Virus record (IMG/VR): IMGVR_UViG_3300017758_005199
Location: 1 to 23,687 of that record
DNA from: a virus
Length of the DNA: 23,687 nucleotides
Reading direction: 5' to 3' (one strand)
The translations under genes and the position numbers were made by a program. The notes under the pieces were generated by a model, which was not told the DNA's origin, did not search any database, and was given only the letters and a program-made list of their open reading frames with translations. Below, in pieces: positions 1,874 to 19,875 of the stretch (position 1 is the first letter of the stretch; every line of letters begins with the position of its first letter).

Positions 1874-2391
1874 AAAAATCAAATGTACCATTTGTAAATG
1901 AAGTAGAAGAATTTAATGCTACATTTGGCAAACCAAACAATTATGAACCGACAATACCGGAAGAAAAGGAGTGGAAATTCGTATACGACTTTGTACTTGA
2001 AGAGCTGGAAGAATATAGACAGGCATGTGAAAAAGGAGACATCGTGGAAATTTTGGATGCTCTGTGTGATATTGCTTATGTTTCCCTCGGGAACGGCACT
2101 ATGTTACACGGCCTTAAGGATAAAATATGGCCAGCCTATGAAGAAGTACAAGCCAGCAATATGTCGAAGTCTTGTAGCACTGAGAAGGAAGCCATGGAGA
2201 CTGTCACCCTCCGCTCTAAAGAACAAAATGAGCCATGTCACTTTGAACAGGTCGAAGACCGATTCGTAGTGTATAGAACAAGAGATAGAAAGGTTATGAA
2301 GTCAATCAATTACTTCAGACCTGACTTACACCAATTCTTTACAGGAGAGGAATTACAAAAATCTAAACCACAGCAACACTTAGGAATTTAA
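1870..2391 (+). CDS. MazG / phosphoribosyl-ATP pyrophosphohydrolase-family protein
   Basis: A 173-residue all-alpha NTP pyrophosphohydrolase-like protein. The metal-binding pattern is visible: EELEEYR (E44, E45, E48) on one helix and EILDALCDIAYV (D63, D67) on the next, followed by the typical VQASNMSK segment near residues 93-100. The C-terminal region (about 101-173) ends with VVYRTRDRKVMKSINYFRPD, a tail I associate with Bacteroidota members. Family enzymes hydrolyse (d)NTPs or (p)ppGpp-like nucleotides; phage versions are thought to adjust host nucleotide signalling or remove unwanted dNTPs. Base composition is odd: hand counting 1981-2280 gives 130 G+C of 300 (43%), against 43 of 180 (24%) at 3241-3420. 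Codons such as CTG, GCC and CCG-C contexts are common here and rare next door, so recent acquisition is likely. Confidence 0.85.
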   Translation: MKKSNVPFVNEVEEFNATFGKPNNYEPTIPEEKEWKFVYDFVLEELEEYRQACEKGDIVEILDALCDIAYVSLGNGTMLHGLKDKIWPAYEEVQASNMSKSCSTEKEAMETVTLRSKEQNEPCHFEQVEDRFVVYRTRDRKVMKSINYFRPDLHQFFTGEELQKSKPQQHLGI

Positions 2392-4175
2392 TGTATAAAA
2401 AATGCTATCAGGGTAAAAATATAGGTAAAAACCTGTATGAAATGCATCTATGGGAGTCTGATGGTAAACATCAAAGAATTAACTATCTTGTAGAAGCATA
2501 TCAATTATGTGGTGAAAACCAAGCAGAAGCTCATGGGTTAGGAAGTGAACCTCTACGTAAAATTAAAAATTGGAAATTTAGTAGAAGCGAAAAATATAGA
2601 CATGATAATACTCCTAATTTATATTATGGGGATTCAAGACTTGCTAAAGATGGTTGGGTTCAAAATTTTTTAATTGATCGTTATGGGACTAATGATGAAC
2701 CTTCCACAGGACATCGTGAATTATACTTTGATATTGAGTGTGAAATTGGAGGTGCTTTAACAGAGGAATACATTGAACGTGCTCCTATGACTATTACTTC
2801 TATTGCTTGGTGGGATAAAATAGAAGACCATTGGGCAATTCTTATTTTAGATACTAAAGACCAATTAAAACATACTAAAACAGGAAAAAATAAAAATAAA
2901 GAAATCATTCCTGTAAGGACTGAACAAGAACTACTTGGAAAGTTTATTGAAAACTTTAGACGTATTGATCCTGATATTTTAATTGGTTATAATAGTGATT
3001 TTTTTGATATTCCTTATTTATATTATAGGATTTGCAATGTATTAGGAAAAGAATTTGCCGATCATTTATCTCCTTTAGAAGGAGAAATTGATGAACCTAT
3101 TTCATCTAAAAAATATTCTCAATATTATTTTTCTAAAGACCAATCTGTAAGGATTAAAGGTGTTGAGTCTTTAGATTACATGAAATTACATAGAAAATAT
3201 AGTTGGAAAGATGAACCAAGTTGGAAATTAGATGCTATTGGAGAAAAATATGCTAGTGTAAATAAAATTGAATATGAAGGGAATTTAGATCAATTATTTG
3301 AAACCGACATACATAAATTTATAGAATATAATTTCCGTGACGTTGAAATATTAAAATTATTAGACGAAAAACTTCAGTATATTGCTTTAACTAAAAATCT
3401 ATCTCATAAGGGTAAACATAATTATGAAGATATTTACTATAATAGTGTAACCCAAGATGGAGCAATTTCTGCTTATTTATTATCTCAAGGAATTGTACCT
3501 CCTAACAAAGAAATGAACCCAGCAAATAAAAAAGGATATGCTGGTGGTTACCTTTTTTGCCCCAAAGCTGGTTTATATAAATACATGTTTGATGAGGATT
3601 TAACATCGCTATATCCTTCAATTATTATGTCATTAAATATTGGTAAAGAGACATTACTAGCAAGAATAGTTGATGCTGATGATCGTAATAATAGATTAGG
3701 ATTAAATGATTTAAAAGAAATGGATCCTAATAAAGAAATATTAGTAGAAAACTTTGTAAAAAATACCCAAAAAATGCAACCTGTATCTAAAGTTATTGAA
3801 ACTATAGAAAAATTTAATTTAGCTGTATCTGCAAACGGTTGCATGTTTAGAACTGATAAAGAATCTGCCCTATCAACTATATTAGCTAAATGGTTTAATG
3901 AAAGAGTTGAGTATAAGAATAAAATGAAAGCTGCATACAAGGCAAATGATAAAGAAGCAGGTGAATATTATCATTTAATGCAGTACACAATGAAAATTTT
4001 GCTTAACAGTTTATATGGGGCAACAGCATTACCTAATTTTAGGTATGGAATGAATTATGCTATATTAAGCGAAGCAATTACATTATCAGGTCACAGAATT
4101 ATCCAAGAATCAGCTTTATGTGCTAATAAACATATGAATAAAGTTATGAGAGGAAAAATTAAATTAAATATATAA
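2391..4175 (+). CDS. 43A: Family-B DNA polymerase, N-terminal part (exonuclease, palm motif A, fingers motif B)
   Basis: The 594 residues cover the first two thirds of a T4 gp43-type polymerase. The 3'-5' exonuclease motifs are YFDIECE (D114/E116), GYNSDFFDIPY (199-209, D206) and YNFRDVE (Y313, D317). Palm motif A is DEDLTSLYPSIIM (D403) and fingers motif B is MKILLNSLYG (K535, N539, Y542, G543). The protein stops about 50 residues after motif B and lacks motif C (YxDTDS), which is found in a separate gene at 5234-6229. The two lengths sum to 925, close to the 898 of T4 gp43, so essentially nothing is missing. The last residues (NKVMRGKIKLNI) are in the region that precedes motif C in intact enzymes. 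The two chains presumably assemble into one active polymerase. The start ATG directly follows the mazG stop. Confidence 0.93.
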   Translation: MYKKCYQGKNIGKNLYEMHLWESDGKHQRINYLVEAYQLCGENQAEAHGLGSEPLRKIKNWKFSRSEKYRHDNTPNLYYGDSRLAKDGWVQNFLIDRYGTNDEPSTGHRELYFDIECEIGGALTEEYIERAPMTITSIAWWDKIEDHWAILILDTKDQLKHTKTGKNKNKEIIPVRTEQELLGKFIENFRRIDPDILIGYNSDFFDIPYLYYRICNVLGKEFADHLSPLEGEIDEPISSKKYSQYYFSKDQSVRIKGVESLDYMKLHRKYSWKDEPSWKLDAIGEKYASVNKIEYEGNLDQLFETDIHKFIEYNFRDVEILKLLDEKLQYIALTKNLSHKGKHNYEDIYYNSVTQDGAISAYLLSQGIVPPNKEMNPANKKGYAGGYLFCPKAGLYKYMFDEDLTSLYPSIIMSLNIGKETLLARIVDADDRNNRLGLNDLKEMDPNKEILVENFVKNTQKMQPVSKVIETIEKFNLAVSANGCMFRTDKESALSTILAKWFNERVEYKNKMKAAYKANDKEAGEYYHLMQYTMKILLNSLYGATALPNFRYGMNYAILSEAITLSGHRIIQESALCANKHMNKVMRGKIKLNI

Positions 4176-4438
4176 TGACTTTAAAGAAACAATCAATTAG
4201 AAGAGGAATGCATGTAGTATTAGATGGACGTCTTGTAGAAAAAGATGAACTAATACAATTAAGTGAAAATTGGACTGAATCCCAAGAAAACTTTTTTAGA
4301 AAAATGTTAAAACAGGGTGGTGAGTTTAAAATTCAAGGGAAAAAATTTAATATTACTTTACAAGATAAAATATTAGACTCAACTGGAAAAAAAGATACAG
4401 GTATAATCACAATCCCGGGATTAGATAGTAGATTTTAA
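4175..4438 (+). CDS. Unknown protein inside the split polymerase, 87 aa
   Basis: The start overlaps the polymerase stop by one base (TAATG), so translation is probably coupled. The 87-residue product is basic at the N-terminus (MTLKKQSIRRGMHVVLDGR), has a helix-forming middle (SENWTESQENFFRKMLKQGG) and a strand-rich end. No membrane segment, signal peptide, metal-binding motif or homing-endonuclease motif (LAGLIDADG, GIY-YIG, HNH) is visible. I do not recognise the family. It is the first of three ORFs separating the two polymerase genes; its base composition resembles the polymerase. Confidence 0.75.
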   Translation: MTLKKQSIRRGMHVVLDGRLVEKDELIQLSENWTESQENFFRKMLKQGGEFKIQGKKFNITLQDKILDSTGKKDTGIITIPGLDSRF

Positions 4439-4440
4439 AT

Positions 4441-4860
4441 ATGGAATATAATAGAAAAATAGGAATAGTAGCGGGTTGTTTTGATGTAATGCATCCTGGG
4501 TATGTACAAATGTTTAAAGAAATAAATAACAATTGTACTGATTTATATATACTATTACATGATGACCCTTCAATCGAAAGACCTGAAAAATTAAAACCAA
4601 TACTTTCAGTACAGGAAAGAAGAGAATTGTTGGAGCAGGTAAGTTATTTTTCATACCCAAATATACTCTCTTATAATACAGAAGAAGAATTATTATTTCT
4701 AATTAAAAGTATAGACCCAGATATAAGGTTTTTAGGAGATGATTATGCTGATAAATCTTATACAGGTGATGAATTAGGCATTCCTGTTCATTGGGTAGAA
4801 AGAAACCATAAATGGTCTACAACATTGTATAAAAAATTAATAGCTGAATCATGCAAGTAG
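4441..4860 (+). CDS. Nucleotidyltransferase-like protein (TagD/RfaE cytidylyl- or adenylyltransferase fold)
   Basis: A 139-residue protein with the HIGH-superfamily nucleotidyltransferase layout: IGIVAGCFDVMHPGYVQMFK at 7-26, FLGDDYADKSY near residues 98-108, and a late WSTTLYKKL segment comparable to the ISST-type motif. Relatives couple CTP or ATP to glycerol-3-phosphate, heptose-phosphate and similar substrates for polysaccharide precursors. The HxGH motif reads H18-P-G20-Y21: the second histidine, normally catalytic, is tyrosine. Either this is a diverged subfamily with altered chemistry or activity is reduced. It lies between the polymerase halves and precedes a DUF6165-like gene, which suggests a small sugar-related cassette. 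The substrate cannot be predicted. Confidence 0.8.
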   Translation: MEYNRKIGIVAGCFDVMHPGYVQMFKEINNNCTDLYILLHDDPSIERPEKLKPILSVQERRELLEQVSYFSYPNILSYNTEEELLFLIKSIDPDIRFLGDDYADKSYTGDELGIPVHWVERNHKWSTTLYKKLIAESCK

Positions 4861-5237
4861 AAATTTCTATAGGAGAATTCCTAGATAAAATTAGTATTTT
4901 AGAACTTAAGCTTTTACATATTGCTGATAAGAGCAAATTAATGAATGTTCAAAAAGAGTTATACCATCATAGTCCTCTTTATAGTGACTTAATAGAAGTA
5001 TATGGAGATGAGCTAAAAGGTTTGTATCTTAAATTATCACAAGTAAATAGTAGTTTATGGGTTATAGAAGATAAAATAAGAGAATTAGAATCTAAAAAAC
5101 GTTTTGATGATGAATTCATAGAACTAGCTAGATCAGTATATTTTACAAACGATAAACGTGCTGAAATTAAAAAGGATATTAATTTATTAACTGGTAGTGA
5201 ACTTATAGAAGAAAAGTCTTATAAAGATTATAAATGA
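4851..5237 (+). CDS. DUF6165-like protein
   Basis: A 128-residue, mostly helical protein. The sequence starts VEISIGEFLDKISILELKLL and contains VNSSLWVIEDKIRELE, then FIELARSVYFTNDKRAEIKK and GSELIEEKSY. This order of conserved segments (SxGELLDKIxILExKL, VNxxLWxIED, FIxLARxVYxxND, GSxLxEEKSY) is the DUF6165 family as I remember it. The family's function is unknown to me, but members often sit beside glycosyltransferases. It overlaps the nucleotidyltransferase by 10 bases and the second polymerase gene by 4, so the cassette appears to be translated as part of one transcript with both polymerase parts. Confidence 0.75.
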   Translation: MQVEISIGEFLDKISILELKLLHIADKSKLMNVQKELYHHSPLYSDLIEVYGDELKGLYLKLSQVNSSLWVIEDKIRELESKKRFDDEFIELARSVYFTNDKRAEIKKDINLLTGSELIEEKSYKDYK

Positions 5238-6229
5238 AACACTTAGAAGAAACACCTTGGTTTATTTGCGATAAAGAAGATGAGAATTATTGTGCATATG
5301 TAGACACAGATTCTAACTATTTTAATGCAGAACCATTATTACTTCATTTATATCCTAATTTTGAATCCTTTCCTGATAAAGAAAAAGATGATAAATTAGA
5401 AGGTGTAGCTTTAGCTTATCAAGATATTATTACTGAATATTATAATAAATTAGCCAAAGAATGTTTTAATGTTTCTACTCATAAGCTAGAAATGAAAACT
5501 GAATGTGTAATTAGATCAGCATATTTTAGAAACACTAGACGTTATGCCCAATGGATTACTAAACAAGAGGGAATTGAAAAAGAAATTTTAGATATTAAAG
5601 GATTAGAATTTCAAAAAACTAATTTCCCTCCTATTTTAGGAAATTTCTTTAATGATATTTTACAACAAATATTAAAAGGAGCAAATCACAATGAAATTTT
5701 AATTCAAATTAAAGATTTTAAAAGTAAAATACTTGAAGGAGAAATCCCATTTACTAAATTAGGTAATCCTACTGCTGTTAAAAAATTAGAAAAATACCAA
5801 GGTGCTAAACCTAGAGCAGGTGAAATGTTTACTGAGATTTTAAAACCTTTAAGTCAAGCTAAAATAGATGATAGGGGAAAATTAATAAGACCCCAAAGAC
5901 AATTAGGCGCACCCGCCCCAGTCCGAGCTGCTATTCGTTATAATGATTTACTTAGGATATGGCAATTAGATAAAAAACATAATTTAATGACTAATGCAGA
6001 TAAAGTAAAATGGATTTATCTAAAAGAAAATCCTTATAAAATAGAAGCACTAGCATTTATGGAAAACGATTTACCTGAAAAAATAAAAGATTTTTTAGAG
6101 AAATATGCTGATCGTAAAAAAGTATTTGAAACTATTTTATTAAATAAGTTAGAAGGCCTTTTTGGTGATTTAGGGTGGTCTTTAGATCTAAATCCTTATT
6201 TAAAAAACTTAAAATATTTTGAAATCTAA
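5234..6229 (+). CDS. 43B: Family-B DNA polymerase, C-terminal part (palm motif C and thumb)
   Basis: The 331 residues begin just upstream of palm motif C, AYVDTDSNYF, with the catalytic aspartates D24 and D26. Downstream is HKLEMKTECVIRSAYFRNTR (about 82-101), in the position of the DNA-contacting basic motif before the thumb, then a thumb-like helical region ending LNPYLKNLKYFEI. Motifs A and B are absent here and present in the gene ending at 4175, so the two proteins are complementary. The start overlaps the previous stop (ATGA). In T4 the polymerase C-terminus docks on the sliding clamp, and the clamp gene follows here after 23 bases. Whether this tail serves that role is inference. Confidence 0.92.
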   Translation: MKHLEETPWFICDKEDENYCAYVDTDSNYFNAEPLLLHLYPNFESFPDKEKDDKLEGVALAYQDIITEYYNKLAKECFNVSTHKLEMKTECVIRSAYFRNTRRYAQWITKQEGIEKEILDIKGLEFQKTNFPPILGNFFNDILQQILKGANHNEILIQIKDFKSKILEGEIPFTKLGNPTAVKKLEKYQGAKPRAGEMFTEILKPLSQAKIDDRGKLIRPQRQLGAPAPVRAAIRYNDLLRIWQLDKKHNLMTNADKVKWIYLKENPYKIEALAFMENDLPEKIKDFLEKYADRKKVFETILLNKLEGLFGDLGWSLDLNPYLKNLKYFEI

Positions 6230-6252
6230 AAAAAAATTCGTATATTATAATC
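6217..6252 (+). promoter_or_regulatory. Candidate promoter before the sliding clamp gene
   Basis: The 23-base gap holds TATATT at 6241-6246, only six bases before the clamp ATG. TTTTG at 6217-6221 lies 19 bases upstream of it, the spacing of Bacteroidota promoters (-33 TTTG, -7 TAnnTTTG). The -7 match is partial (TATATTAT). If used, the transcript would be leaderless or nearly so. The same hexamer occurs in the four other longer gaps. Confidence 0.4.
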
Positions 6253-6990
6253 ATGATAAATCAAAAACTACTAACTAGCGTTATATCAAAATATTATTTA
6301 AATGGGATGTTCTCCCAGGTTAAATGGCGTATTAAAGATAACACTTTAACTATTTATGCAAGCGAATCAGGAAGAGCAGTAAAAGTCCACCTTAAAAATT
6401 TTAAATTTGAAGATTGTGAATTAGGTATATTTGACACTTATAAACTTTCAAAATTATTATCTATTTGTAATGGAGAACTATTAATAACAGCTGAAAAAAC
6501 TCATAAAATCTACACTAGATTACATATAGCTGATTCAAATTTTGATTTAAATTATGCATTAGCTGATATATTTGTAATTCCTAAGGTTAAATATCTCCCC
6601 CCTATAGAAAACCCACATGTTGATATTGATTTAACAGTTGAAGATATTGATGCTTTAATAAAAGCAAAAAATGCATTATCAGATCAAAGTAATTTATTAG
6701 TTAAAACTACTACTGATTTAGATGGAACTCCTACTTGTGAATTTACTTTTGGGGATATTGATGACTATTCAAATAAAGTAACTTATACTTTGAAAGGTGA
6801 TATTACAAAACAAAATGTAGAATTACCTTTTGATTCTGATGTCCTTAAAAATATATTTTCTGCTAATAAAGACATGACCCAAGGAAAATTAAAAATTGAA
6901 GACACTCCAGAGGAATATATAGGATTAATCCAACTTAATTTCTATTCAGAAGATATAGAAACAGAATATTTTATTACTAGGAATGAGTAA
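6253..6990 (+). CDS. 45: Sliding clamp (T4 gp45-like)
   Basis: A 245-residue protein, close to T4 gp45 (228). Clamp proteins lack catalytic motifs, so the call rests on the overall pattern and context. It opens with a helix (QKLLTSVISKYYLNGMFSQV), followed by repeated strand-helix units, IFDTYKLSKLLSICNG near residues 60-75, acidic strands, and a second-domain helix ENPHVDIDLTVEDIDALIKA. It lies directly after the polymerase genes and upstream of gp44 and gp62. It would form a ring around DNA and tether the split polymerase; phage clamps of this type can also act in late transcription. It has its own candidate promoter and overlaps the next gene by 8 bases. Confidence 0.85.
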   Translation: MINQKLLTSVISKYYLNGMFSQVKWRIKDNTLTIYASESGRAVKVHLKNFKFEDCELGIFDTYKLSKLLSICNGELLITAEKTHKIYTRLHIADSNFDLNYALADIFVIPKVKYLPPIENPHVDIDLTVEDIDALIKAKNALSDQSNLLVKTTTDLDGTPTCEFTFGDIDDYSNKVTYTLKGDITKQNVELPFDSDVLKNIFSANKDMTQGKLKIEDTPEEYIGLIQLNFYSEDIETEYFITRNE

Positions 6991-8238: not shown

Positions 8239-10118
<1,880 letters not shown>

Positions 10119-10136
10119 ATTTAAATTTAATTAATT

Positions 10137-10304
10137 ATGACAAAGCAAGAAATTTTCGAGCAAATTGGTGAACTGTATGAAACATTTGTAACAGAACACA
10201 ACACAACAACCAAAGCAGGAGCACAACGTGCTCGTAAAGCCATTGGTAGTATCAAGAAATTGGTAACAGATTATAGAAAAGCTTCAGTAAATGAAAGCAA
10301 ATAA
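10137..10304 (+). CDS. Hc1/histone H1-like small nucleoid protein, 55 aa
   Basis: A short frame from ATG at 10137 to TAA at 10302-10304, overlapping the next ORF by 14 bases. The peptide starts MTKQEIFEQIGELYETFVTE and continues TKAGAQRARKAIGSIKKLVT then DYRKAS. This helix-loop-helix pattern with a KAGxxRARKAxxxIxKL core matches the Hc1-type histone H1-like proteins of Bacteroidota, which share KAAGxRARKxxLELxKLxKxxRK and bind DNA non-specifically. The C-terminus stops at SVNESK and lacks the long lysine/alanine tail of some relatives. It probably packs or coats DNA. The call is from remembered pattern; the coding nature is supported by position and overlap. Confidence 0.72.
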   Translation: MTKQEIFEQIGELYETFVTEHNTTTKAGAQRARKAIGSIKKLVTDYRKASVNESK

Positions 10305-10569
10305 TCCTGAAATCAATGTTATTGAGGATAACGTTCTTATTGCCAGGCGAGTTCCCCCTGGTGATAAGTGGCGTTTAGTGGCTAATGAGCCAGATGGTAA
10401 AGTACATTCTTCTTTAACTGATACTTTAGAAGCATATATGATGGCAACTGGATTTAAAGGTGAATATAGATTAGCTCCTTTAAAAAGTGAATTATATGCC
10501 GTATCAACTACTGAAGAAGTAATAGAACCAGAACCAGAAAAAAGATATTCAATCTACGGGGAGTACTAA
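10291..10569 (+). CDS. Unknown protein, 92 aa
   Basis: A 92-residue protein with strand-forming segments (NVIEDNVLIARRVPPGDKWR) and a helix (LTDTLEAYMMATG), ending in an acidic tail with EPEPE. No catalytic or binding motif is recognised. It starts within the Hc1-like gene and ends 24 bases before gp44, closing the folding/nucleoid block. The second Met lies far downstream (about residue 49), so the ATG at 10291 is the only reasonable start. Confidence 0.65.
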   Translation: MKANNPEINVIEDNVLIARRVPPGDKWRLVANEPDGKVHSSLTDTLEAYMMATGFKGEYRLAPLKSELYAVSTTEEVIEPEPEKRYSIYGEY

Positions 10570-10579
10570 AATAAAAGTT

Positions 10580-10593
10580 GTATATTGGGGCAT
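10580..10593 (+). promoter_or_regulatory. Candidate promoter hexamer TATATT before gp44
   Basis: The 24-base gap contains TTGTATATTGGGG, with TATATT at 10581-10586, placed seven bases before the gp44 ATG at 10594. TATATTGG partly fits the Bacteroidota -7 element TAnnTTTG. No TTG element is seen at 19-21 bases upstream. This matches the arrangement before the sliding clamp gene and the gene at 7921. Confidence 0.35.
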
Positions 10594-11496
10594 ATGAAGC
10601 AACATACATTATTAAATGAAATTTATCGGCCTAATGATTTAGAAAATTATGTAGGCAATGCAACCCTAAAAGCATCTATAGGGAAACAATTAGAACAAAA
10701 TGATATTCAAAATTATTTATTCTATGGACCCGCGGGATGTGGTAAAACAACTTTAGCTAAAATTATTATTAATAACCTCGATTGTGAATCACTTTATATA
10801 AATGCGAGTGATGAACGAGGAATTGAAACTATCAGAGATAAGGTAGTAGGGTTTTCTTCTGTTGCTAGTTTAAAACCTTTAAAAGTAGTAATATTAGATG
10901 AATCTGATTTTTTAACAATTCAAGCACAAGCTTCTTTACGTAATGTAATTGAAACGTTCTCAAGAACTACTAGATTTATTTTAACATGTAATTTTGTAGA
11001 GAGAATTATTGATCCAATTCAATCACGTTGTCAAACATTTAAAATAGTTCCACCAACTAAAAAAGAAGTTGCAGTCCATATAGCTGGCATATGTGATAAA
11101 GAAAGTATAGGTTATGAAGTTCCAGCTTTGGGAAAACTAGTAAGCAAGTATTATCCAGACATTCGTAAAATGTTAAATGCAGTTCAAGCAAGTACAATAG
11201 ATGGTCATTTACAGCTTGATAAAGATTTACTAGTATCGTCCAGCTATATGGATTCTGTGCTTGAAAAGTTAAAACAAGATGATTTTAAAAATATTAGACA
11301 AATAATAGCAGATTCAGGAGTAAGTGATTTTGAAGAATTATTTCGATTTTTATATGATAATGCTTCAGAATACATGCCTAATAAAGAAGGAACAGCTGCT
11401 ATTTTAATTAATGAACATTTATATAAATCAAATTTTCGTATAGACAAAGAGATCAACTTAATGTCTTTAATCCAAACCTTAATAAATAATAAATAA
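10594..11496 (+). CDS. 44: Clamp loader ATPase subunit (T4 gp44-like)
   Basis: A 300-residue AAA+ protein (T4 gp44 is 319). The order is NEIYRPNDLENYVG (N-terminal RPxxLxxxVG motif), Walker A GPAGCGKT (45-52), NASDERGIETIR (70-81), Walker B VVILDESD (98-105), sensor 1 LTCNF (130-134) and the SRC motif (144-146) supplying the arginine finger. A C-terminal collar domain follows. With gp62 it would open the gp45 ring and load it on primed DNA. I chose the ATG at 10594 over an in-frame TTG at 10585, because the TTG lies inside the promoter-like TATATTG and the ATG gives the family's usual N-terminus. Confidence 0.96.
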   Translation: MKQHTLLNEIYRPNDLENYVGNATLKASIGKQLEQNDIQNYLFYGPAGCGKTTLAKIIINNLDCESLYINASDERGIETIRDKVVGFSSVASLKPLKVVILDESDFLTIQAQASLRNVIETFSRTTRFILTCNFVERIIDPIQSRCQTFKIVPPTKKEVAVHIAGICDKESIGYEVPALGKLVSKYYPDIRKMLNAVQASTIDGHLQLDKDLLVSSSYMDSVLEKLKQDDFKNIRQIIADSGVSDFEELFRFLYDNASEYMPNKEGTAAILINEHLYKSNFRIDKEINLMSLIQTLINNK

Positions 11497-12141: not shown

Positions 12142-12876
12142 ATGATAACTGTTATTTTAAATGGATATAAAAGACCATATGCCTTAGCTCAACAGTTAGA
12201 AGCAATAAAATCTCAAACCCTTCAAGCCCAAACTGTAATGATGTGGCAAAATAAAGGTAGTGAGTTTGATTTTGATTTAATTAATTCTACTCAACATGCA
12301 AGTTGTAATTCTAATTTAGGAGTATGGGCTAGATTTTCATATGCTTTAAATGCTAAAACCCCTTATATTTGTATTCTAGATGATGATACTATTCCGGGGA
12401 GTAAATGGCTAGAAAATTGTATTAGCACTATCCAACAATATGATGGATTATTAGGTACTATAGGAGTTAGATATGAAAGTAATGAAGCATATTGGCCCTC
12501 TCATAGGATAGGATGGGCAAACCCAAACGAAAATGTTGAACAAGTAGATATTGTAGGACATTCTTGGTTTTTTAGGAGAGAATGGCTTTCTACCTTTTGG
12601 AGAGAACTTCCTGAAATAGACCAATCAGTTTATGTAGGAGAAGATATTCATTTTTCTTATACTTTACAGAAATATTTAAATAAAAATACTTATGTTCCTC
12701 CCCATCCTGCTAATGATATTGAAATGTGGGGTAGTAAACCTGAAACAGCTTGGACTATAGGAAACGGCCCAGATAAAGTAGGAATATCCCAATCCCCAGA
12801 ATCTTTTGAGGCATTTAATAATATTTATTCTTTTTATATTAAAAAAGGATTTAAAATACTAAAAAATATTAATTAA
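12142..12876 (+). CDS. GT-A type glycosyltransferase (GT2-like), paralogue of the gene at 21990
   Basis: A 244-residue protein starting MITVILNGYKRPYALAQQLE, the first strand and helix of a GT-A fold. CILDDDTIPG carries the acidic nucleotide-sugar/metal motif (D80-D82). Later landmarks are DIVGHSWFFRREWLS, GEDIHFSYTLQKY and TYVPPHP. A second copy with the same landmarks lies at 21990-22760. The ED of GEDIHFSY is a candidate catalytic acid/base. Donor and acceptor are unknown. No membrane span or signal peptide is visible, so it should act in the cytoplasm. It begins six bases after gp62 and opens the glycan island. Confidence 0.85.
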   Translation: MITVILNGYKRPYALAQQLEAIKSQTLQAQTVMMWQNKGSEFDFDLINSTQHASCNSNLGVWARFSYALNAKTPYICILDDDTIPGSKWLENCISTIQQYDGLLGTIGVRYESNEAYWPSHRIGWANPNENVEQVDIVGHSWFFRREWLSTFWRELPEIDQSVYVGEDIHFSYTLQKYLNKNTYVPPHPANDIEMWGSKPETAWTIGNGPDKVGISQSPESFEAFNNIYSFYIKKGFKILKNIN

Positions 12877-12877
12877 A

Positions 12878-13789
12878 ATGGAAAAATCATTTATTTTACA
12901 TTCTAATGAAAAATATTTTGATATAGTATCTACTTGTATTAAATCAATAAGACAATACAGTAATTTACCTATTTACTTATATTTAATTAATAGTAATAAA
13001 AAATGCAATATAGCTGGTGTTACTACAATTAAATGGGATATATCATTCAAAGAACAAAAAAACAATTATATTGAAGAAGGTAATAACTTTTATATAAATA
13101 GAAACAGTAGCGAAATTTATAATATCCTAATCCAAAAACCATTAATTACTAAACATGCTTTAGAAAATTTTTCAGACATAGTAGCATATATTGATAGTGA
13201 CTCAATTGCTACTCCTTATGTAGAAAATATTTTTAATTATTTTAATCCTAGTGAATCTTATCCTTATTTTAGTCAAGGAATATACCAATTTTTACATTGG
13301 AATGGAAGAGGAGGAGCAATGGATGAAAATGATTTAAGTACCACTTTAGAACATCCTATAAGCGAATTATTTAGGTTAAATCAATATAATAGAATAGCTA
13401 GATTTTATAGACAAACTGGGTATTTTATAACAGGAAAAAACAATATAGATTTTTTAGAAGAATGGGATTGGATGTGTAAACATCCCACTATATTAAAAGA
13501 CACAGCTTACTATGCTCCTTTTCATGAAGAAACAGTATTAAATCCTTTACTTTGGGACAGAGAATTTTATAATGGCTTGCCTCTTGTATATATTAATGGT
13601 ACATTGGAGACAATAGATGAAATTTATTCTCATTTAGGTTTTACGGGAGATGTAAGAGATATAAGACCATGGCTAAAAATACCCGCTAATAAAGAAGAAT
13701 TATTATTTTTCCATGGGGAAAAAAGAATAAATGTAATGAATAAAATGATAACTAAACTAAATCAACTATATGAAACCGGAACTATTTGA
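12878..13789 (+). CDS. GT-A type glycosyltransferase-like protein (DxD, GT8-like)
   Basis: A 303-residue protein. The N-terminus is strand-helix-strand (SFILHSNEKYFDIVSTCIKS, then LPIYLYLINS). Residues 102-110, VAYIDSDSI, hold a DxD motif (D106, D108) of the kind that binds a metal and nucleotide-sugar. A segment near 195-240 includes TGYFITGKNNIDFLEEWDWM and FHEETVLNPLLW, typical of GT8-like and related enzymes. The C-terminal HGEKRIN could supply a late histidine ligand. The precise family is uncertain. It starts one base after the preceding GT gene stops and overlaps the next ORF by 20 bases. Confidence 0.75.
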   Translation: MEKSFILHSNEKYFDIVSTCIKSIRQYSNLPIYLYLINSNKKCNIAGVTTIKWDISFKEQKNNYIEEGNNFYINRNSSEIYNILIQKPLITKHALENFSDIVAYIDSDSIATPYVENIFNYFNPSESYPYFSQGIYQFLHWNGRGGAMDENDLSTTLEHPISELFRLNQYNRIARFYRQTGYFITGKNNIDFLEEWDWMCKHPTILKDTAYYAPFHEETVLNPLLWDREFYNGLPLVYINGTLETIDEIYSHLGFTGDVRDIRPWLKIPANKEELLFFHGEKRINVMNKMITKLNQLYETGTI

Positions 13790-14000
13790 AATGTTAATGG
13801 CACAAGCAGTGGCCGAAAGAACAAAAGCAATTCTTACTTTAAACTTATTAAGCGAACACCCCGCTGGAATTGGAGACCATTCAACAGATGATTTTTATAA
13901 TAATGCTAATGAAGCATTATCCGTTTTAGTAGATGCAGATGATAAAATTGAGACATTAAATAAATATTTTACATTACCAAAAGAACAAGTTAATGGGTGA
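13770..14000 (+). CDS. Unknown conserved-looking phage protein, 76 aa
   Basis: A 76-residue, mostly helical acidic protein. The middle reads LNLLSEHPAGIGDHSTDDFY and the end VLVDADDKIETLNKYF. I recall short phage proteins with a GIGDHST core and a DAxDKxETLxxYF tail, but no function. It overlaps the GT gene by 20 bases and the following gene by 8. It sits with DNA and nucleotide genes rather than sugar genes, so a replication-related role is more likely. Confidence 0.7.
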   Translation: MKPELFEMLMAQAVAERTKAILTLNLLSEHPAGIGDHSTDDFYNNANEALSVLVDADDKIETLNKYFTLPKEQVNG

Positions 14001-14424
14001 TATAGTATCAAAAGCATTTGAATTAGAAGAAAACGCTAAACTAAAAGGTATGAGTGATAGAGAGATTATGGATGCAAAAAATCCAGATGCAGCAGCAGTT
14101 AGAAAATTTGAAAAAGACTATCCTGAATTATCTCAAGAATTTAGGGAAATACAAAATGAAATGTATGAAATGTTTGCTCGTAAACATCTTGATTATGGTC
14201 TAAATAATATCGCTTTAGGAGGAGATTTGACTAATGATGATGATAAAAAGTTTTCACTTACTGGTTTAACTATTAGATTAACTGATAAAATTAGTAGATT
14301 AAAAAATTTGCTTATTAATGGTAAAAACTTTGTTAAAGGCGAAGGAATGGAGGACACGTTTATTGATATAGCTAATTATGGAATAATTGGTTTATTAGTA
14401 GGACGTGACAAATGGAAAAAATAA
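13993..14424 (+). CDS. Nmad1/DUF1599-like protein
   Basis: A 143-residue helical protein. The conserved-looking core is ARKHLDYGLNNIALGG (about 62-77), then LTIRLTDKISRLKNLL, and FIDIANYGIIGLLVGRDKW at the C-terminus. This order (K-x-x-DYG, R-x-x-DK-x-x-RLKNL, D-x-DIANY) fits the DUF1599 family, also called nucleotide modification associated domain 1, which is related to MazG/dUTPase-like all-alpha nucleotide hydrolases. The acidic residues of DKI and DIANY could bind metal. If right, it adds to the evidence for base modification or pool cleansing alongside queE, folE and mazG. Assignment is by pattern memory. Confidence 0.6.
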   Translation: MGDIVSKAFELEENAKLKGMSDREIMDAKNPDAAAVRKFEKDYPELSQEFREIQNEMYEMFARKHLDYGLNNIALGGDLTNDDDKKFSLTGLTIRLTDKISRLKNLLINGKNFVKGEGMEDTFIDIANYGIIGLLVGRDKWKK

Positions 14425-14427
14425 ATT

Positions 14428-15396
14428 TTGGCTAGAAAAATACCTAAAATAGTAAGGGAGATTCGTTCGAATCCTCCCCAAGAGATTAATTTTGCTTATC
14501 AAAAGAATGTCTCATACTCACAAATGTCTATATTTCGTGGTTGTCCATATCGTTGGAAGTTACAATATAAAGACAAAATAAAGGCATTCACTTCATCAAT
14601 CCATACCGTATTTGGAACTGCTATACATGAAGTACTCCAGCATTATTTAGATGTAATGTTTGATACAAGTGCGGCGGGTGCCGACAGAATTGATCTAGAA
14701 GAATTATTCAATGAAAAATTTATTGAAGAATATCAATCCCAATACAAACGAAACAAAAATCAGCATTTTTCATCTGCTGAAGAAATGAGAGAATTTTATG
14801 AAGATGGAATTGGTATTTTAAATTGGTTTAAGAAAAAACGTGCTAAATATTTTTCTAGAAGAGGATGGCATTTAGTTGGTTGCGAAGTACCTTTAGTTAT
14901 TTCCCCAAATAAAATGTATACTAACATAAAATATACAGGTTTCCTTGATGTGGTATTATATAATGAAAAATACAATACATTTAAAATTATAGATATTAAA
15001 ACTAGTACTCGTGGTTGGAAAGAACGAGATAAAAAGAATGAAGATAAACAATATCAATTATTATTGTATAAACAATTTTTTAGTGAGCAATATGGTATTC
15101 CTTTAAAGGATATTGAAATTGAGTTTTTTATTGTAAAGAGAAAAGTATTATCGTTTGATGATGAAAATATTATGTCCCCTCACCAGGCATATAGGGTACA
15201 AACATTCAGTCCACCTAGTGGGAAAATAAAATTAAGTAGAGCTAAAAAAGCTATAGATAATTTTATAAAAGAATGCTTTGTATCAAGTGGTGAAATAAAA
15301 GAAATTGAATATCCTAAATCACCTTCAAAGTGGAATTGTACTTTTTGCCCCTTTAAAGAAAATTTAGAACTTTGTGGAGAAGGGTTAAAATTTTAG
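14428..15396 (+). CDS. Cas4/RecB-type PD-(D/E)XK nuclease with Fe-S cysteines
   Basis: A 322-residue protein with the full nuclease signature: SYSQMSIFRGCPYRWKL (SxSxxxxxxxCPxxW), GTAIHEVLQHY (H67), GFLDVVLY (D174), IIDIKTS (D189, K191) and QYQLLLYKQF. Four cysteines are arranged as in Cas4/AddB Fe-S nucleases: C39 near the start, and C304, C307, C316 at the end (CTFCPFKENLELC). It should be an exonuclease or end-processing nuclease with a 4Fe-4S cluster. I accept a TTG start at 14428, four bases after the previous stop; the next in-frame Met (residue 33) would cut off part of the first motif. Similar genes occur in marine T4-like phages. Confidence 0.88.
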   Translation: MARKIPKIVREIRSNPPQEINFAYQKNVSYSQMSIFRGCPYRWKLQYKDKIKAFTSSIHTVFGTAIHEVLQHYLDVMFDTSAAGADRIDLEELFNEKFIEEYQSQYKRNKNQHFSSAEEMREFYEDGIGILNWFKKKRAKYFSRRGWHLVGCEVPLVISPNKMYTNIKYTGFLDVVLYNEKYNTFKIIDIKTSTRGWKERDKKNEDKQYQLLLYKQFFSEQYGIPLKDIEIEFFIVKRKVLSFDDENIMSPHQAYRVQTFSPPSGKIKLSRAKKAIDNFIKECFVSSGEIKEIEYPKSPSKWNCTFCPFKENLELCGEGLKF

Positions 15397-15404
15397 AGAT
15401 ATAC

Positions 15405-15439
15405 ATATATTTATAATAAACGTTTTAATAATAAAGATT
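15405..15439 (+). promoter_or_regulatory. Candidate promoter and operator before the RHH gene
   Basis: The 43-base gap holds TATATTTA (15406-15413) and an overlapping TATAAT, within a 16-base sequence identical to 7366-7381. Immediately downstream is a perfect eight-base palindrome, AAACGTTT (15418-15425), a reasonable operator candidate since the next gene encodes a ribbon-helix-helix protein. Confidence 0.4.
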
Positions 15440-15625
15440 ATGCCAACAAAAGACATGACACTTACAAGTGTAAAAGTTAAAAGCGATTTATTTGAGAACT
15501 TCAAGATTGAATGTGTAAAGCGTAAATTTTCATTCCAAAAACTTGCCGATCGGGCTATTTATTTGTATCTTACAGATGAAGATTTTCGTAAACAAATTTC
15601 TAATCAAAATACTCTCGAATTATAA
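15440..15625 (+). CDS. Ribbon-helix-helix DNA-binding protein
   Basis: A 61-residue protein with the classic layout: a short strand (TLTSVKVKS), helix 1 (DLFENFKIECVKRK), a turn beginning FSFQ, and helix 2 (KLADRAIYLYLTDEDF). Such Arc/CopG-type proteins dimerise through the strand and bind short inverted repeats. The AAACGTTT palindrome just upstream is a possible autoregulatory site. It may control the glycosyltransferase genes that follow after 12 bases. Identity is by secondary-structure pattern and short motifs. Confidence 0.65.
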   Translation: MPTKDMTLTSVKVKSDLFENFKIECVKRKFSFQKLADRAIYLYLTDEDFRKQISNQNTLEL

Positions 15626-15637
15626 ATCCAAAAATTA

Positions 15638-17077
15638 ATGAAAAATAGTTTTGAACATGTTCCTAAAGAAGATAGGAAAAAAATCCTCTTAATTTGTGAT
15701 GACATTAGAGTACACTCAGGAGTAGCTACAGTTGCTCGTGAAATAGTAGTACATACTTGCCATCACTTTAATTGGTGCCAAATTGCAGGAGCAATTAAAC
15801 ATCCAGATAAAGGTAAAGGGTTAGATATTAGTAAAGATACTGGTGACCAAGTAGGAGTAAATGATGCTTATGTAATGATGTACCCAGCTGATGGTTATGG
15901 TAATATTGAGTTATTACGTCAAGTTATAGCTAGAGAAAACCCAGATGCATTATTACTAATTACAGACCCAAGATATTTTACTCATGTATTTAATGCTGAA
16001 CAAGAAATACGTAAAAATATTCCAATTGCTTACTTAAATATATGGGATGATTATCCTGCTCCCATGTATAATCGTGCATTTTATGAAGCATGTGATTTAT
16101 TAATGGGGATTTCGAAACAAACAGTAAATATAAATAAAATTGTATTGGGTGATGCAGCTAAAAATAGAATATTTAAATATGTTCCACATGGCCTAAATTC
16201 TGATGCTTTCAAACCCTTACCAGCAGATAATAAAGAATTATTAGAAACAAAAAAGAAATTTTTTGGTAAATCAGATCCTAAATTTGTTTTATTTTTTAAT
16301 TCTAGAAATATTAGACGCAAACAAATCCCAGATGCTTTATTAGCTTTTAGATCATTTTTAGATCAATTACCTTATGAAGAAGCATTACAATGTAAATTCT
16401 TATTACATACCGAAATCAGAACAGATGCTGGAACAGATTTAGGAGCAGTAAAAGAATATTTATTTGATGAAAAATATCCTGATAATGTTTTATTTTCTAC
16501 AGGTAAACTTTCCACTAATCAATTAAATCACTGTTATAATATTGCAGATGTCCAAATACTATTAACATCAAATGAAGGTTGGGGACTAACAATTACAGAA
16601 GCAATGTTAGCTGGAACTCCTTTTATAGCTAATGTTACAGGAGGTATGCAGGATCAGATGCGATTTGAAGATAAAGATGGTAATTGGTTTACTCCATCCC
16701 CAGAATTACCTTCTAACCATAGACAAACAATGAATAATCATGGGGAATGGGTTTTCCCATGTTTTCCTACATCACGTTCGGTTCAAGGTTCACCTATGAC
16801 CCCTTATATTTTTGATGATAGATGTAAATGGGAAGATGCTAGGGATCAAATTATAGAATTATATAAAATGACTCGAGAACAACGTAAAGCATTAGGTTTA
16901 AAAGGTAGAGAATGGGCTTTAAGTGATGAAGCTGGATTTACCTCTAAACATCAAGCTAACAGAGTAATGGAAGCTTTTACTGAATTATTTGAAACTTGGA
17001 AACCAAGAGAAAAATATGAAATAATAAACGCTACCGAATTTAATGGAAGACATTTAAAACACGAAATTATATACTAA
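15638..17077 (+). CDS. GT-B glycosyltransferase (GT4-like)
   Basis: A 479-residue protein with two Rossmann-like halves. The N-terminal half starts ILLICDDIRVHSGVATVARE, with a Gly-containing acceptor-side loop. The C-terminal half has VLFFNSRNIRRKQIPDAL and, near residues 311-323, NEGWGLTITEAMLAGTPFIA, the EGxGLxxxEAMAxGxPxxA signature of GT4 enzymes with the donor-phosphate-binding glutamate. It would transfer a sugar from an NDP-sugar with retention of configuration. An insert with several aromatic residues (about 350-390) is unusual compared with short bacterial GT4 proteins. The acceptor is unknown. The next GT gene overlaps its stop by one base. Confidence 0.88.
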   Translation: MKNSFEHVPKEDRKKILLICDDIRVHSGVATVAREIVVHTCHHFNWCQIAGAIKHPDKGKGLDISKDTGDQVGVNDAYVMMYPADGYGNIELLRQVIARENPDALLLITDPRYFTHVFNAEQEIRKNIPIAYLNIWDDYPAPMYNRAFYEACDLLMGISKQTVNINKIVLGDAAKNRIFKYVPHGLNSDAFKPLPADNKELLETKKKFFGKSDPKFVLFFNSRNIRRKQIPDALLAFRSFLDQLPYEEALQCKFLLHTEIRTDAGTDLGAVKEYLFDEKYPDNVLFSTGKLSTNQLNHCYNIADVQILLTSNEGWGLTITEAMLAGTPFIANVTGGMQDQMRFEDKDGNWFTPSPELPSNHRQTMNNHGEWVFPCFPTSRSVQGSPMTPYIFDDRCKWEDARDQIIELYKMTREQRKALGLKGREWALSDEAGFTSKHQANRVMEAFTELFETWKPREKYEIINATEFNGRHLKHEIIY

Positions 17078-18372
17078 TGAATAAACCAGTTTTTGCAATA
17101 AGTTGCCCTTTTGATACTTACTCCGGTTATGGCGCTCGTGCTAGAGATATAGTTAAAGCAATAATTAATACCGGTAAATACGATGTAAAATTAATGGCCC
17201 AACGTTGGGGATCAACTGCTTGGGGGTTTTGTAAAGATAACCCTGAATGGGAATTTTTAAACAATCATAGATTACCTGAAAATAAGCTCACAACAAAACC
17301 CGATATTTGGATGCAAATTACTATTCCAAATGAATTTCAAACAGTAGGAAAGTATAATATAGGATGTACTGCTGGGATTGAATCTAATTTATGCAAACCA
17401 GAATGGATTGAAGGTTTAAATAGAATGGACATGAATTGGGTATCATCTAATTTTGCAAAGCAAACTTTTGAAAGTGTTAATTATGAAAAAATTAATAAAC
17501 AAACAAATCAAAAAGAAGGGAATATTACTTTACAAAAACCAATTGAAGTAATATTTGAAGGTGCTAATTTAGATGTATATAAGCATATTACATCCAAAGA
17601 AATTAAAACAATTGATTTAAGTGAAATAAAAGAATCTTTTTGTTATTTGTTTGTAGGACATTGGATGCAAGGACATTTTGGTCATGATAGAAAAAATGTA
17701 GGTAAAATGATTAAAGCATTTTATGAAACTTTTAAAGGACCAAATAAACCAAAACCTGCTTTAATTTTAAAAGCATCTATAGGAGTATCTTCTTATATGA
17801 GTAGAGAAGAAATTTTAAAGCGAATTAAAAATATTCGTAAAACAGTTAATTCATCTACTTTACCTAACATTTATGTTTTAAATGGAGAATTTAGTGATCA
17901 AGAAATGAATGAATTGTATCACCACCCTAAAGTAAAATCTATGATTAGCTTTACTAAAGGAGAGGGATATGGTAGGCCCTTACTTGAGTTTAGTCTAACA
18001 GGTAAACCCATTATAGCTAGTAATTGGTCAGGACATACTGACTTTTTAAAAACATCCTTTACTACTTTAATTGGGGGTGAATTAGAAAATGTACATGAAA
18101 GTGCAGCTAATGATTGGCTAATTAAAGAATCTAAATGGTTTAAACCACATGATGGAGAAATAGGAAAATCTTTAAAAGATGTTTATAAAAAATATAAACA
18201 ATATTTAGTTAAATCTAAACAACAAAAGAATTTTAGTAGATCTAGATTTAGTTTTGATAAAATGCAAGAATTAGTTGATAGTGTTTTAGAGGCAAATATA
18301 CCTAAATTCCCAACACAAACTGAATTGAAATTACCTAAATTAAATATTCCAAAATTACAAAAAGTAGAATAA
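17077..18372 (+). CDS. GT-B glycosyltransferase (GT4-like), second copy type
   Basis: A 431-residue protein. The N-terminus, FAISCPFDTYSGYGARARDI, has the strand and Gly-rich loop (SGYGxxAR) of a GT-B acceptor domain. The C-terminal domain includes LFVGHWMQGHFGHDRKNVGK and, around residues 295-305, KGEGYGRPLLEFSLTGKPII, the E-x-x-x-R-P-x-x-E-x-x-x-x-G-x-P donor motif. The last 25 residues (KFPTQTELKLPKLNIPKLQK) are Lys/Pro/Leu repeats that look like a linker or docking tail. The pair with the preceding gene is translationally coupled (TAATG), so the two may act on the same glycan in sequence. Confidence 0.85.
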   Translation: MNKPVFAISCPFDTYSGYGARARDIVKAIINTGKYDVKLMAQRWGSTAWGFCKDNPEWEFLNNHRLPENKLTTKPDIWMQITIPNEFQTVGKYNIGCTAGIESNLCKPEWIEGLNRMDMNWVSSNFAKQTFESVNYEKINKQTNQKEGNITLQKPIEVIFEGANLDVYKHITSKEIKTIDLSEIKESFCYLFVGHWMQGHFGHDRKNVGKMIKAFYETFKGPNKPKPALILKASIGVSSYMSREEILKRIKNIRKTVNSSTLPNIYVLNGEFSDQEMNELYHHPKVKSMISFTKGEGYGRPLLEFSLTGKPIIASNWSGHTDFLKTSFTTLIGGELENVHESAANDWLIKESKWFKPHDGEIGKSLKDVYKKYKQYLVKSKQQKNFSRSRFSFDKMQELVDSVLEANIPKFPTQTELKLPKLNIPKLQKVE

Positions 18373-18809
18373 TGGCTTATGATAATTTAATAGAGTGCAC
18401 CCGCTGTGGTTCAGATGCATGTTATGTATCTGAAGTAACTAAAGATATAAAAATAGAATTATGTTATGGGTGTGGTTTTCAATCTAATTCTTTAATGACA
18501 GTTGATAGCCAATTTTTAAAGGAACAATTAGAAACCCTTCCAGATCTTTATAAAGCTTTAATAGGTGAAGAAGAATCAAGTAAAGTATGGATGCCCTCAT
18601 TTCATAATGTAGAAGGAAAAGGTATGGTGTTTGCTGATGGCAGTGGCCCAGAAAACTGGAAATGGGGAGCTGTAAAACATGTTAAAGTACCTAAAAAAGA
18701 AAGAAAAAAATATAAGAATGCTAAATATAGAGCAGACATGTCTACAATAAAACATTTTGAAGAACGTGATTTTATGGATGCTCTATCATATATTAAAGTA
18801 ATACCATGA
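18372..18809 (+). CDS. Zinc-ribbon protein of unknown function
   Basis: A 145-residue protein. The first 35 residues form a zinc-ribbon pattern, CTRC (C9, C12), then CYGC (C31, C34), with an extra C17. The rest has an aromatic-rich stretch (GPENWKWGAVKHVKVPKKER) and a basic Lys/Arg segment near residues 110-120. Nothing identifies a partner or nucleic-acid target. It sits between GT genes, overlapping the upstream stop by one base and the next start by four. It could be a regulator or a structural small protein. Confidence 0.7.
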   Translation: MAYDNLIECTRCGSDACYVSEVTKDIKIELCYGCGFQSNSLMTVDSQFLKEQLETLPDLYKALIGEEESSKVWMPSFHNVEGKGMVFADGSGPENWKWGAVKHVKVPKKERKKYKNAKYRADMSTIKHFEERDFMDALSYIKVIP

Positions 18810-19255
18810 AATTAGGAGATTTAGTAGAAAAAATAATTCGAGTTATTACCTTTGGTCAAGGTAAAAAAATAGCAACTAGGGTAGCTAAACTACGGGGAAA
18901 AGAAGATTGTGGTTGTGATAGAAGACAACAAAAATTAAACAATTTAAGTGATAACCTTTTTAAATTTACAGAAGTGGGTACCCAATCTTCTATAAATGTT
19001 AGTTGGAAAGAAGAATGGAAGGAAATTAGAAAACAAGTTAGTTGTTCCTGTAATTTTGTAGAAGGAATAGTTGAAATAAAAGATGCTAACGGGGCTCTTA
19101 TTAAAAATATTAAGTTTGATAGGTTAGATTTATTAAATGGGACTAAACGAAATATAACCCTTGAATACCCATCCAAAGCAACCCCAGTTATAGCAGAAAT
19201 AAAATATAAACAAAAAGAAGGTGAATTCACTACCCCAGTAATTATAAAAATATGA
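18806..19255 (+). CDS. Unknown protein with two CxC pairs
   Basis: A 149-residue protein in two parts. The N-terminal part (MKLGDLVEKIIRVITFGQGK onward, with CGCDRRQQKLN at 35-45) resembles a short N-terminal unit that I recall in proteins of Bacteroidota phages and prophages. The C-terminal part (about 83-149) alternates strands like a small beta-sandwich. Cysteines occur as C35-G-C37 and C80-S-C82, a possible metal site. No signal peptide is convincing; the N-terminal helix is amphipathic. It overlaps its neighbours by four bases each side. Confidence 0.65.
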   Translation: MKLGDLVEKIIRVITFGQGKKIATRVAKLRGKEDCGCDRRQQKLNNLSDNLFKFTEVGTQSSINVSWKEEWKEIRKQVSCSCNFVEGIVEIKDANGALIKNIKFDRLDLLNGTKRNITLEYPSKATPVIAEIKYKQKEGEFTTPVIIKI

Positions 19256-19875
19256 AAATAAGTTATGCTATTACTGTTTGTAATGAGTTTGTAGAGATAC
19301 AAGAGCTTATAAGATTCCTTGTTAATAATAAAAGAACACAGGATGAAATTATAGTATTATTTGATGAAAAAAATGGAGATGAAGGAGTAGAGTTTTTCTT
19401 AAGAGCCAAATCAGTTAATTCTTCGTTTGGATGGCATTCAGGAGAATTTAATAACCATTTTGCTGATTGGAAAAATAAACTAACAAGTTTATGTTCTGGT
19501 GATTATATATTTCAAATAGATGCTGATGAAATCCCTAATAAAATCCTTATAGAACAACTACCTGCAATATTAGAATCTAATCCTGATAATGAAGTTTATT
19601 TAGTTCCTAGGGTTAATACAGTAAAAGGTTTAACAGAAGCTCACATTCAAAAGTGGGGATGGAAAGTAGATGATAAAGGATGGATTAACTATCCTGACTA
19701 CCAATGGCGTATATGGAAGAATAAACCAGAGATAAAATGGAAGAATAAAGTACATGAAGTATTAGAAGGATTTAAAACATATGCTCCATTGCCTGCTCAA
19801 GAAGAACTTTCACTATACCATCCAAAAGATATTAAACGCCAAGAAAAGCAAAATAATTATTATGAAACACTCTAA
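19252..19875 (+). CDS. GT2-family glycosyltransferase
   Basis: A 207-residue GT-A protein. It begins KISYAITVCNEFVEIQELIR, the usual first strand-helix of GT2 enzymes. FQIDADEIP supplies the DxD(E) motif (D90, D92, E93). WRIWKNKPEIKWKNKVHEVL near residues 150-170 is shared with LPS-core-type GT2 proteins (R-x-[WF]-R-x(n)-G-x-VHE). It would transfer a sugar with inversion. It lacks the C-terminal membrane segments of many GT2 proteins, so it is probably soluble. It overlaps the sugar dehydrase gene by 14 bases. Confidence 0.88.
   Translation: MKISYAITVCNEFVEIQELIRFLVNNKRTQDEIIVLFDEKNGDEGVEFFLRAKSVNSSFGWHSGEFNNHFADWKNKLTSLCSGDYIFQIDADEIPNKILIEQLPAILESNPDNEVYLVPRVNTVKGLTEAHIQKWGWKVDDKGWINYPDYQWRIWKNKPEIKWKNKVHEVLEGFKTYAPLPAQEELSLYHPKDIKRQEKQNNYYETL

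Follow-up and report, generated by a model that had tools for sequence, protein, structure and literature searches.

The window analysed here is the whole of a 23,687-nucleotide stretch of viral DNA (IMG/VR virus record IMGVR_UViG_3300017758_005199), a 23.7-kb metagenome contig and IMG/VR fragment. Within it, gene 43, which encodes the T4-type replicative DNA polymerase gp43, is divided between motif B and motif C into two open reading frames (ORFs), 43A and 43B, and three complete ORFs lie in the gap. It was hypothesised, at a probability of roughly 0.72, that this is a gene split of the homing-endonuclease type that has become a fast-changing cargo slot; that is, a homing endonuclease opened the gene, gp43 came to consist of two subunits, and the gap was later filled with cargo. 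A preliminary description made from the sequence alone had proposed either an old endonuclease-driven split that was later filled or a split caused by the inserted cassette itself. The former agrees with the relatives, in which the same loop holds an endonuclease alone, an endonuclease with cargo, or cargo alone; even in L245, which belongs to the clade of the window, a GIY-YIG gene occupies it. The latter is unsupported for the sugar genes, since the split is constant while these genes come and go.

The two ORFs lie in different frames, sum to 925 amino acids (aa; 594 + 331) and enclose three ORFs between motif B and motif C, as had been described (Table 1). They are complementary and separated by an interruption, and the gene is intact in relatives. 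43A matched the full gp43 family phrog_262 over columns 20-567 (E 8e-106) as well as the Pfam families PF00136 (DNA_pol_B) and PF03104 (exo1), and 43B matched columns 565-742 of phrog_262 (E 1e-39) and also phrog_1918 (E 4e-40); the gp43 chain is thus complete and cut once. The hallmarks of a T4-type family B polymerase, namely the Exo motifs, motifs A, B and C, and the palm and thumb of RB69 and T4 gp43, are all present across the two chains, while the single polypeptide of T4-type gp43 is absent from the window, in a family with known split members. Profile searches also bore out the description of the inner ORFs as a protein of no family, a nucleotidyltransferase-like protein and a DUF6165-like protein, returning no match, PF01467 and PF19662, respectively. 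The gap had been described as showing no LAGLIDADG, GIY-YIG or HNH motif, and Pfam searches and junction alignment detected neither an endonuclease nor an intein among or around its three ORFs. Neither the gap ORFs nor those neighbouring genes that were tested include an endonuclease, so that cargo flanked by two or more endonucleases, as in an HEG-island, is not seen here. No group I intron catalytic core was found in the gap, where Rfam searches at E values up to 5 gave chance matches only. Neither a degenerate endonuclease among the inner ORFs nor an assembly artefact, both of which had been raised as possible objections, was encountered.

Table 1. Positions of gene 43 and adjoining features in the window
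Feature	Position	Strand	Description
43A	2391-4175	+	594 aa; exonuclease, palm motif A and fingers/motif B half of split gp43
43A motifs	ExoI DIE 2730-2738; motif A DLTSLYPSI 3597-3623; motif B KILLNSLYG 3993-4019	+	
43A C-terminal tail (..RGKIKLNI, stop)	4143-4175	+	Short and new; intact gp43 has no counterpart in the alignment
ORF87	4175-4438	+	87 aa; shares one base with the 43A stop (TAATG)
CTP_transf cargo	4441-4860	+	139 aa; small, cytidylyltransferase-like; PF01467 CTP_transf_like, E 5e-8
DUF6165 cargo	4851-5237	+	128 aa; PF19662, E 7e-11; overlaps the genes on both sides
43B	5234-6229	+	331 aa; palm motif C (DTDS 5303-5314) and thumb half of split gp43
43B N-terminal extension (MKHLEETPWFICDKEDE)	5234-5284	+	New and conserved; absent from intact gp43
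Clamp-position gene	6253-6990	+	245 aa; directly after 43B; synteny

Viral contigs were scanned with 43A, which yielded 182 relatives, and with 43B, which yielded 152, and the pooled comparison set comprised 97 distinct split junctions or loci from many independent metagenome assemblies. In the clade to which the window belongs, a large family of marine phages, the two halves are separate ORFs in every locus holding both, with a gap of -4 to about 4200 nt; L079 has no insert and yet is split by an ATGA overlap. Two more split copies were found in contigs binned with bacteria, one of them a Flavobacteriaceae metagenome-assembled genome (MAG), which hints at the phage host. A single 23.7-kb metagenome contig might by itself raise the suspicion of an assembly artefact; because 97 distinct junctions from many independent assemblies share the split, in addition to the two contigs in bacterial MAGs, an artefact is practically inconceivable, and the split is confirmed as real. 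A literature search of an open library returned no account of the window clade or of cargo inside a split gene 43.

Alignment with the intact gp43 of T4, S-PM2, HTVC008M, Mel-JY01 and a sister clade placed the break past the helix that follows motif B and ahead of the strand with motif C, where the T4 sequence reads NKVCGTN / DEDFIAAGDTDS. The match of 43A to the RB69 gp43 structure stops at residue 609, which locates the break in the turn before the catalytic DTD, at about RB69 residues 610-615. The loop between motifs B and C varies in length and sequence, and the break lies in the identical loop in the window clade, in the sister-clade locus L369, in a freshwater clade and in the phage LR756508. 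Extra residues occur at the break on both chains; in the window clade, 43A has a common short tail (..NKV.R.E.KLEI) and 43B starts with MKHLEETPW.ICD..D.NYC. Longer 43A C-terminal tails were observed in L132, L020, L033, L046 and L154, several of them ending in QPRPMW and one in SPRPYGI.

Relatives with the gene intact, about 130 in all, and relatives with an endonuclease at the window's break site, both of which the preliminary description had proposed to look for, were found. In the sister clade, which was reached via the L248 polymerase and has the gene order of the window, 79 of 80 loci have gene 43 as a single frame, and the one exception, L369, is cut at the window's loop by a 209- to 221-aa GIY-YIG/NUMOD gene. 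The third, freshwater clade comprised 57 intact and 12 split loci, all 12 split at this loop. In a GIY-YIG profile scan, 12/12 loci of one GIY-YIG/NUMOD family (53-100% identical), which belong to two related clades, were in exactly this loop, and 67/68 more distant GIY-YIG matches were without gene 43 nearby. The endonuclease stands alone in the loop in L474, L417, L448, L413 and L369. In L469, L470 and L471, between one and four additional ORFs separate it from 43B, and in L391, L396, L399, L433 and L461 the loop contains cargo alone. The gap of L391/L390 contains, as a single case, a gene for a 1037-aa collagen-like protein of the tail-fibre type, that of L397 a treble-clef/PD-(D/E)XK-like protein, and that of L421 an HNH-like protein whose motif was read by eye and which had no Pfam match. 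In the window's own clade, L245 carries a GIY-YIG gene between 43A and ORF87 whose product is 27-29% identical to the sister-clade gene-43 GIY-YIG family. Endonucleases at the window's break site were present in L245, L369, L417, L448 and L465-L476, and the loci surveyed demonstrate that intact, endonuclease, endonuclease plus cargo, cargo-only and empty (L079) states all exist.

Several related arrangements were seen alongside these states. The gene-43 GIY-YIG of L413 (2343-2990) lies in two ORFs of 57 and 156 aa, as if decaying. The polymerase of L161 (LR756508, a 484-kb phage) is split at the window's loop (3364-6417 and 9423-11288) with five ORFs between, and has one intein at motif B (327 aa) and one at motif C (312 aa, LAGLIDADG-like); a search for intermediates with its 43A as the query found nothing. 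In L199 (6001-10084), a split intein interrupts the polymerase at GDTDS, some ten residues away from where the window is broken; this is a fractured gene, and a 322-aa free-standing endonuclease-like gene lies between its halves. A fractured gene of this kind was considered for the window clade and rejected, as no Int-N or Int-C sequence occurs at its junction, unlike at that of L199.

The way in which the split allele spread was examined in the freshwater clade. In a polymerase-core tree built without the loop columns, the window clade forms one branch, all of it split, and its sister group is mixed; a single origin by descent of the freshwater split rows was rejected (approximately unbiased test, p 1e-41). 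All freshwater split 43A carry a new tail, NNEYLQLSKEELIKKFNL, which is missing from intact alleles, the form in L397 having diverged. In the sliding windows 526-650 along the gene, the nearest row was also split in 7/9, 9/9, 8/9 and 8/9 of the split rows, whereas outside the break split rows were nearest to other split rows in only 0-2/9 and were mostly nearest to intact rows. When the loop was excluded, its flanks still gave 7/9 and 9/9, which none of 2000 random sets of intact rows reached. The likeness among the freshwater split alleles is confined to about 25-50 codons around the break, and codon identity at same-residue positions shifts too, in 7/9 rows at the break versus 0-2/9 in almost all other windows. 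Such a tract is as expected if co-conversion at a homing site had carried the split from allele to allele.

The split has become fixed in the window clade, hardly any member of which still has an endonuclease there, and the slot left between the halves turns over fast. Twenty-eight gene arrangements were found in it, and the cargo differs in 213 of 260 pairs with polymerase identity of at least 90%. Among the 97 loci, DUF6165 genes occur in the gap of 58, mannose-6-phosphate-isomerase-type cupin genes in 26 and CTP_transf genes in 18, and 16-19 changes on the tree are needed for each of the three. Rarer cargo includes DegT aminotransferase, FkbM and other methyltransferases, formyltransferase, phosphomannomutase and glycosyltransferases, as well as 2OG-Fe(II) oxygenase and Smr. 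The cargo lies on either side of ORF87 and on its strand. The term "sugar-type cassette" used in the preliminary description is incomplete, since ORF87 is near-constant and bears no likeness to sugar genes.

ORF87 is present in the gap of 94 of the 97 distinct split loci; it is absent from L079 and L046 and was not detected as an ORF in L115. Its place is between GroEL and gp44 in L248, L288, L293, L294, L315, L316 and L369 and a different one in L219; among 23 long sister-clade records, it was present in just 2. As it occurs outside gene 43 in relatives, ORF87 has moved and settled in gene 43 in the window clade; it is an older phage gene for a small conserved protein. It was not found in GenBank phages, and in the bacterial genome collection it occurred in two MAG contigs only. 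The AlphaFold2 (AF2) model had a modest mean confidence (pLDDT, predicted local distance difference test, 68) and no PDB match. The possibility that ORF87 is a degenerate endonuclease was dismissed because it has no Pfam match, a PHROG match at chance level only, and copies outside gene 43.

Based on these results, the most likely course of events would be as described below. A free-standing homing endonuclease gene inserted in the loop between motifs B and C would have opened gene 43; the two halves would be made from one message by stop/start coupling and would assemble non-covalently, perhaps aided by the short new segments flanking the break. Precise repair would be unlikely after the split, and the gap between conserved flanks may then have served as a neutral landing site, from which the endonuclease was lost or replaced and into which ORF87 moved. 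Sugar and surface-chemistry genes would mostly have been gained and lost there, presumably exchanged when co-infecting phages recombined within the conserved polymerase flanks. That an endonuclease made the split and cargo filled it later is well supported in the sister clades; for the window's own lineage, we infer passage through an endonuclease stage. Four observations weigh against this reading. No member of the window clade was seen to have the GIY-YIG family that is specific to gene 43 in the sister clades, and the L245 nuclease, being a different GIY-YIG, could be a later invader. Every early-branching member of the window clade already has ORF87, which could thus be the founding insert. 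The synonymous-site signal in the co-conversion test was weaker than the amino-acid signal, and the N-terminal extension of 43B is disordered in the isolated AF2 model.

The second of these points is the ground for a different history, in which ORF87 left its place between GroEL and gp44 and split gene 43 of the window clade by moving into it, with endonucleases and sugar genes arriving later. The presence of ORF87 in 94/97 split loci, the earliest-branching included, and its GroEL-gp44 location in relatives with an intact gene would fit such a history. However, ORF87 is missing from the gap where two other clades and LR756508 are split at the same loop, many of these gaps contain an endonuclease, L079 and L046 are split without ORF87, and ORF87 has no nuclease or integrase likeness; this order of events is accordingly regarded as quite unlikely. 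The likeness among freshwater split alleles, in turn, might reflect convergent adaptation of a new subunit interface rather than gene conversion, as the tract is short, lies at the expected interface and is stronger in amino acids than at synonymous sites. With the accompanying shift in codon identity and with a shared 43A tail that is a long, specific sequence, convergence appears unlikely, and it is a partial alternative to co-conversion.

It may also be asked whether homing is needed at all, if the loop were the only palm site that tolerates a break and any insertion there survived. The variable loop and the many kinds of cargo in it would be compatible with this idea, and tolerance of the loop and homing are compatible with each other; as a substitute for homing, it is improbable in view of the dedicated endonuclease family found in the loop in 12/12 cases and of the co-conversion-like tract, which needs a mechanism spreading the split allele. 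Rejoining of the halves into one chain by a group I intron or a split intein is brought to mind by the inteins or split inteins at or near the window's break site in L199 and LR756508. Rfam gave no intron match in the window, nor in L369, however, 43A extends only about 10 residues beyond its homologous part, 43B has no Int-C sequence in the alignment, and the gap is filled by complete, coupled ORFs, so rejoining is highly improbable.

Several observations suggest that the opened polymerase still works. The catalytic motifs are kept in both halves, and the ratio of nonsynonymous to synonymous substitution rates (dN/dS) was 0.15-0.23 for both halves against the window's relatives and about 0.03 in most close pairs, one close pair with a dS of 0.006 being uninformative. 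Of 95 loci, 70 have the 43B start at -4 or -1 counted from the preceding stop codon, and 91 have it no more than 30 nt away; in the window it forms an ATGA overlap with that stop. As this position is kept, translation is coupled irrespective of the cargo. The N-terminal extension of 43B is conserved like the rest of 43B (0.83 versus 0.84), and the AF2 model of 43B matches RB69 and T4 gp43 (Foldseek E 1e-11). With both halves under purifying selection and translationally coupled, the split polymerase is probably functional as two predicted subunits, 43A and 43B, which would assemble non-covalently.

Until now, polymerases made in two pieces and phage genes with homing endonucleases in them have been known as isolated cases. 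Methanothermobacter has a naturally split family B polymerase like that of the window, but an archaeal one; its motif C lies on the small subunit, its halves are far apart, and to our knowledge it has no cargo slot. The split in Methanothermobacter (Methanobacterium) is attributed, in work cited within PMC5374615, to the insertion of a homing nuclease gene. The Aeromonas phages 44RR2.8t and 25 also make T4-type gp43 as two polypeptides (43A/43B), and the comparison with them in the preliminary description was apt in kind; the break is elsewhere there, before motif B, so that the whole of motif B is in 43B according to the alignment, unlike in the window. The two genes of phage 25 are separated by one for a seg-type homing endonuclease, and their products co-purify with polymerase activity (PMC2988022). 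Co-purification and activity of split gp43 halves are described in the literature for phage 25 only (PMC2988022). The gap in 44RR2.8t and 25 is an untranslated stretch or an endonuclease and has no cargo genes, in contrast to that of the window; a group I intron, of which the window has none, is additionally present in 43B of phage 25. In Aeromonas phage Aeh1, nrdA is split by mobE, and the T4 topoisomerase gene is split by mobA, the enzyme being active as two chains (PMC2988022). As in the window, an essential enzyme gene is cut in two in these cases, but the endonuclease is still there and no cargo is exchanged in the gap. Fractured genes with split inteins (Dassa 2009, as cited in PMC6892783), such as the phage MIJ3 polymerase, likewise consist of two pieces with an endonuclease ORF between and are rejoined by protein splicing, whereas the window has no intein parts. 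In HEG-islands, homing endonucleases beside essential phage genes move neighbouring cargo (PMC10448857); there the essential genes are the cargo and are flanked by endonucleases, while in the window the essential gene is itself broken and encloses accessory genes, and the endonuclease is mostly gone in its clade.

The hundreds of related phages compared here display most of the steps, from the intact gene through endonuclease insertion and endonuclease plus cargo to cargo only and the empty split. This suggests that the damage done by a selfish gene can turn into a lasting, fast-changing slot for adaptive genes within an essential replication gene. More tentatively, the split may be kept as a locus of cassette exchange, in which the conserved 43A and 43B ends act as fixed homology arms through which co-infecting phages swap surface-sugar, tail-fibre and other host-interaction genes long after loss of the endonuclease; we regard this as possible and somewhat doubtful. 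A natural two-subunit gp43 with its break between two catalytic aspartate motifs would also be useful for the study of a two-chain polymerase active site.

The genes around gene 43 follow an order shared by the window and its relatives (43 - clamp - Hsp20 - GroES - GroEL - gp44). The 245-aa gene 3' of 43B gave no match in a Pfam search and is called the putative sliding clamp gene from its position and comparison with relatives. In an operon consensus scan, terminator-like sites were not above shuffles, and promoter-like sites numbered 40 versus 34 ± 5. The window's GroEL-gp44 interval (10137-10569), which is the ORF87 site in some sister phages, contains two other small ORFs of 55 and 92 aa, the latter with counterparts in L079 and L046. 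The protein encoded at 4441-4860 also matched phrog_7878, of the heptose-1-phosphate adenylyltransferase type, and its nucleotidyltransferase signature, like that of L069, is HPGY and not HxGH. Downstream, glycosyltransferases, a DegT-like aminotransferase and a UDP-GlcNAc 2-epimerase-like gene were recognised by eye at 12142-23687; the glycosyltransferases at 12142-12876 and 21990-22760 look paralogous, and the gene-43 cargo of the window is consistent with the sugar repertoire of this block.

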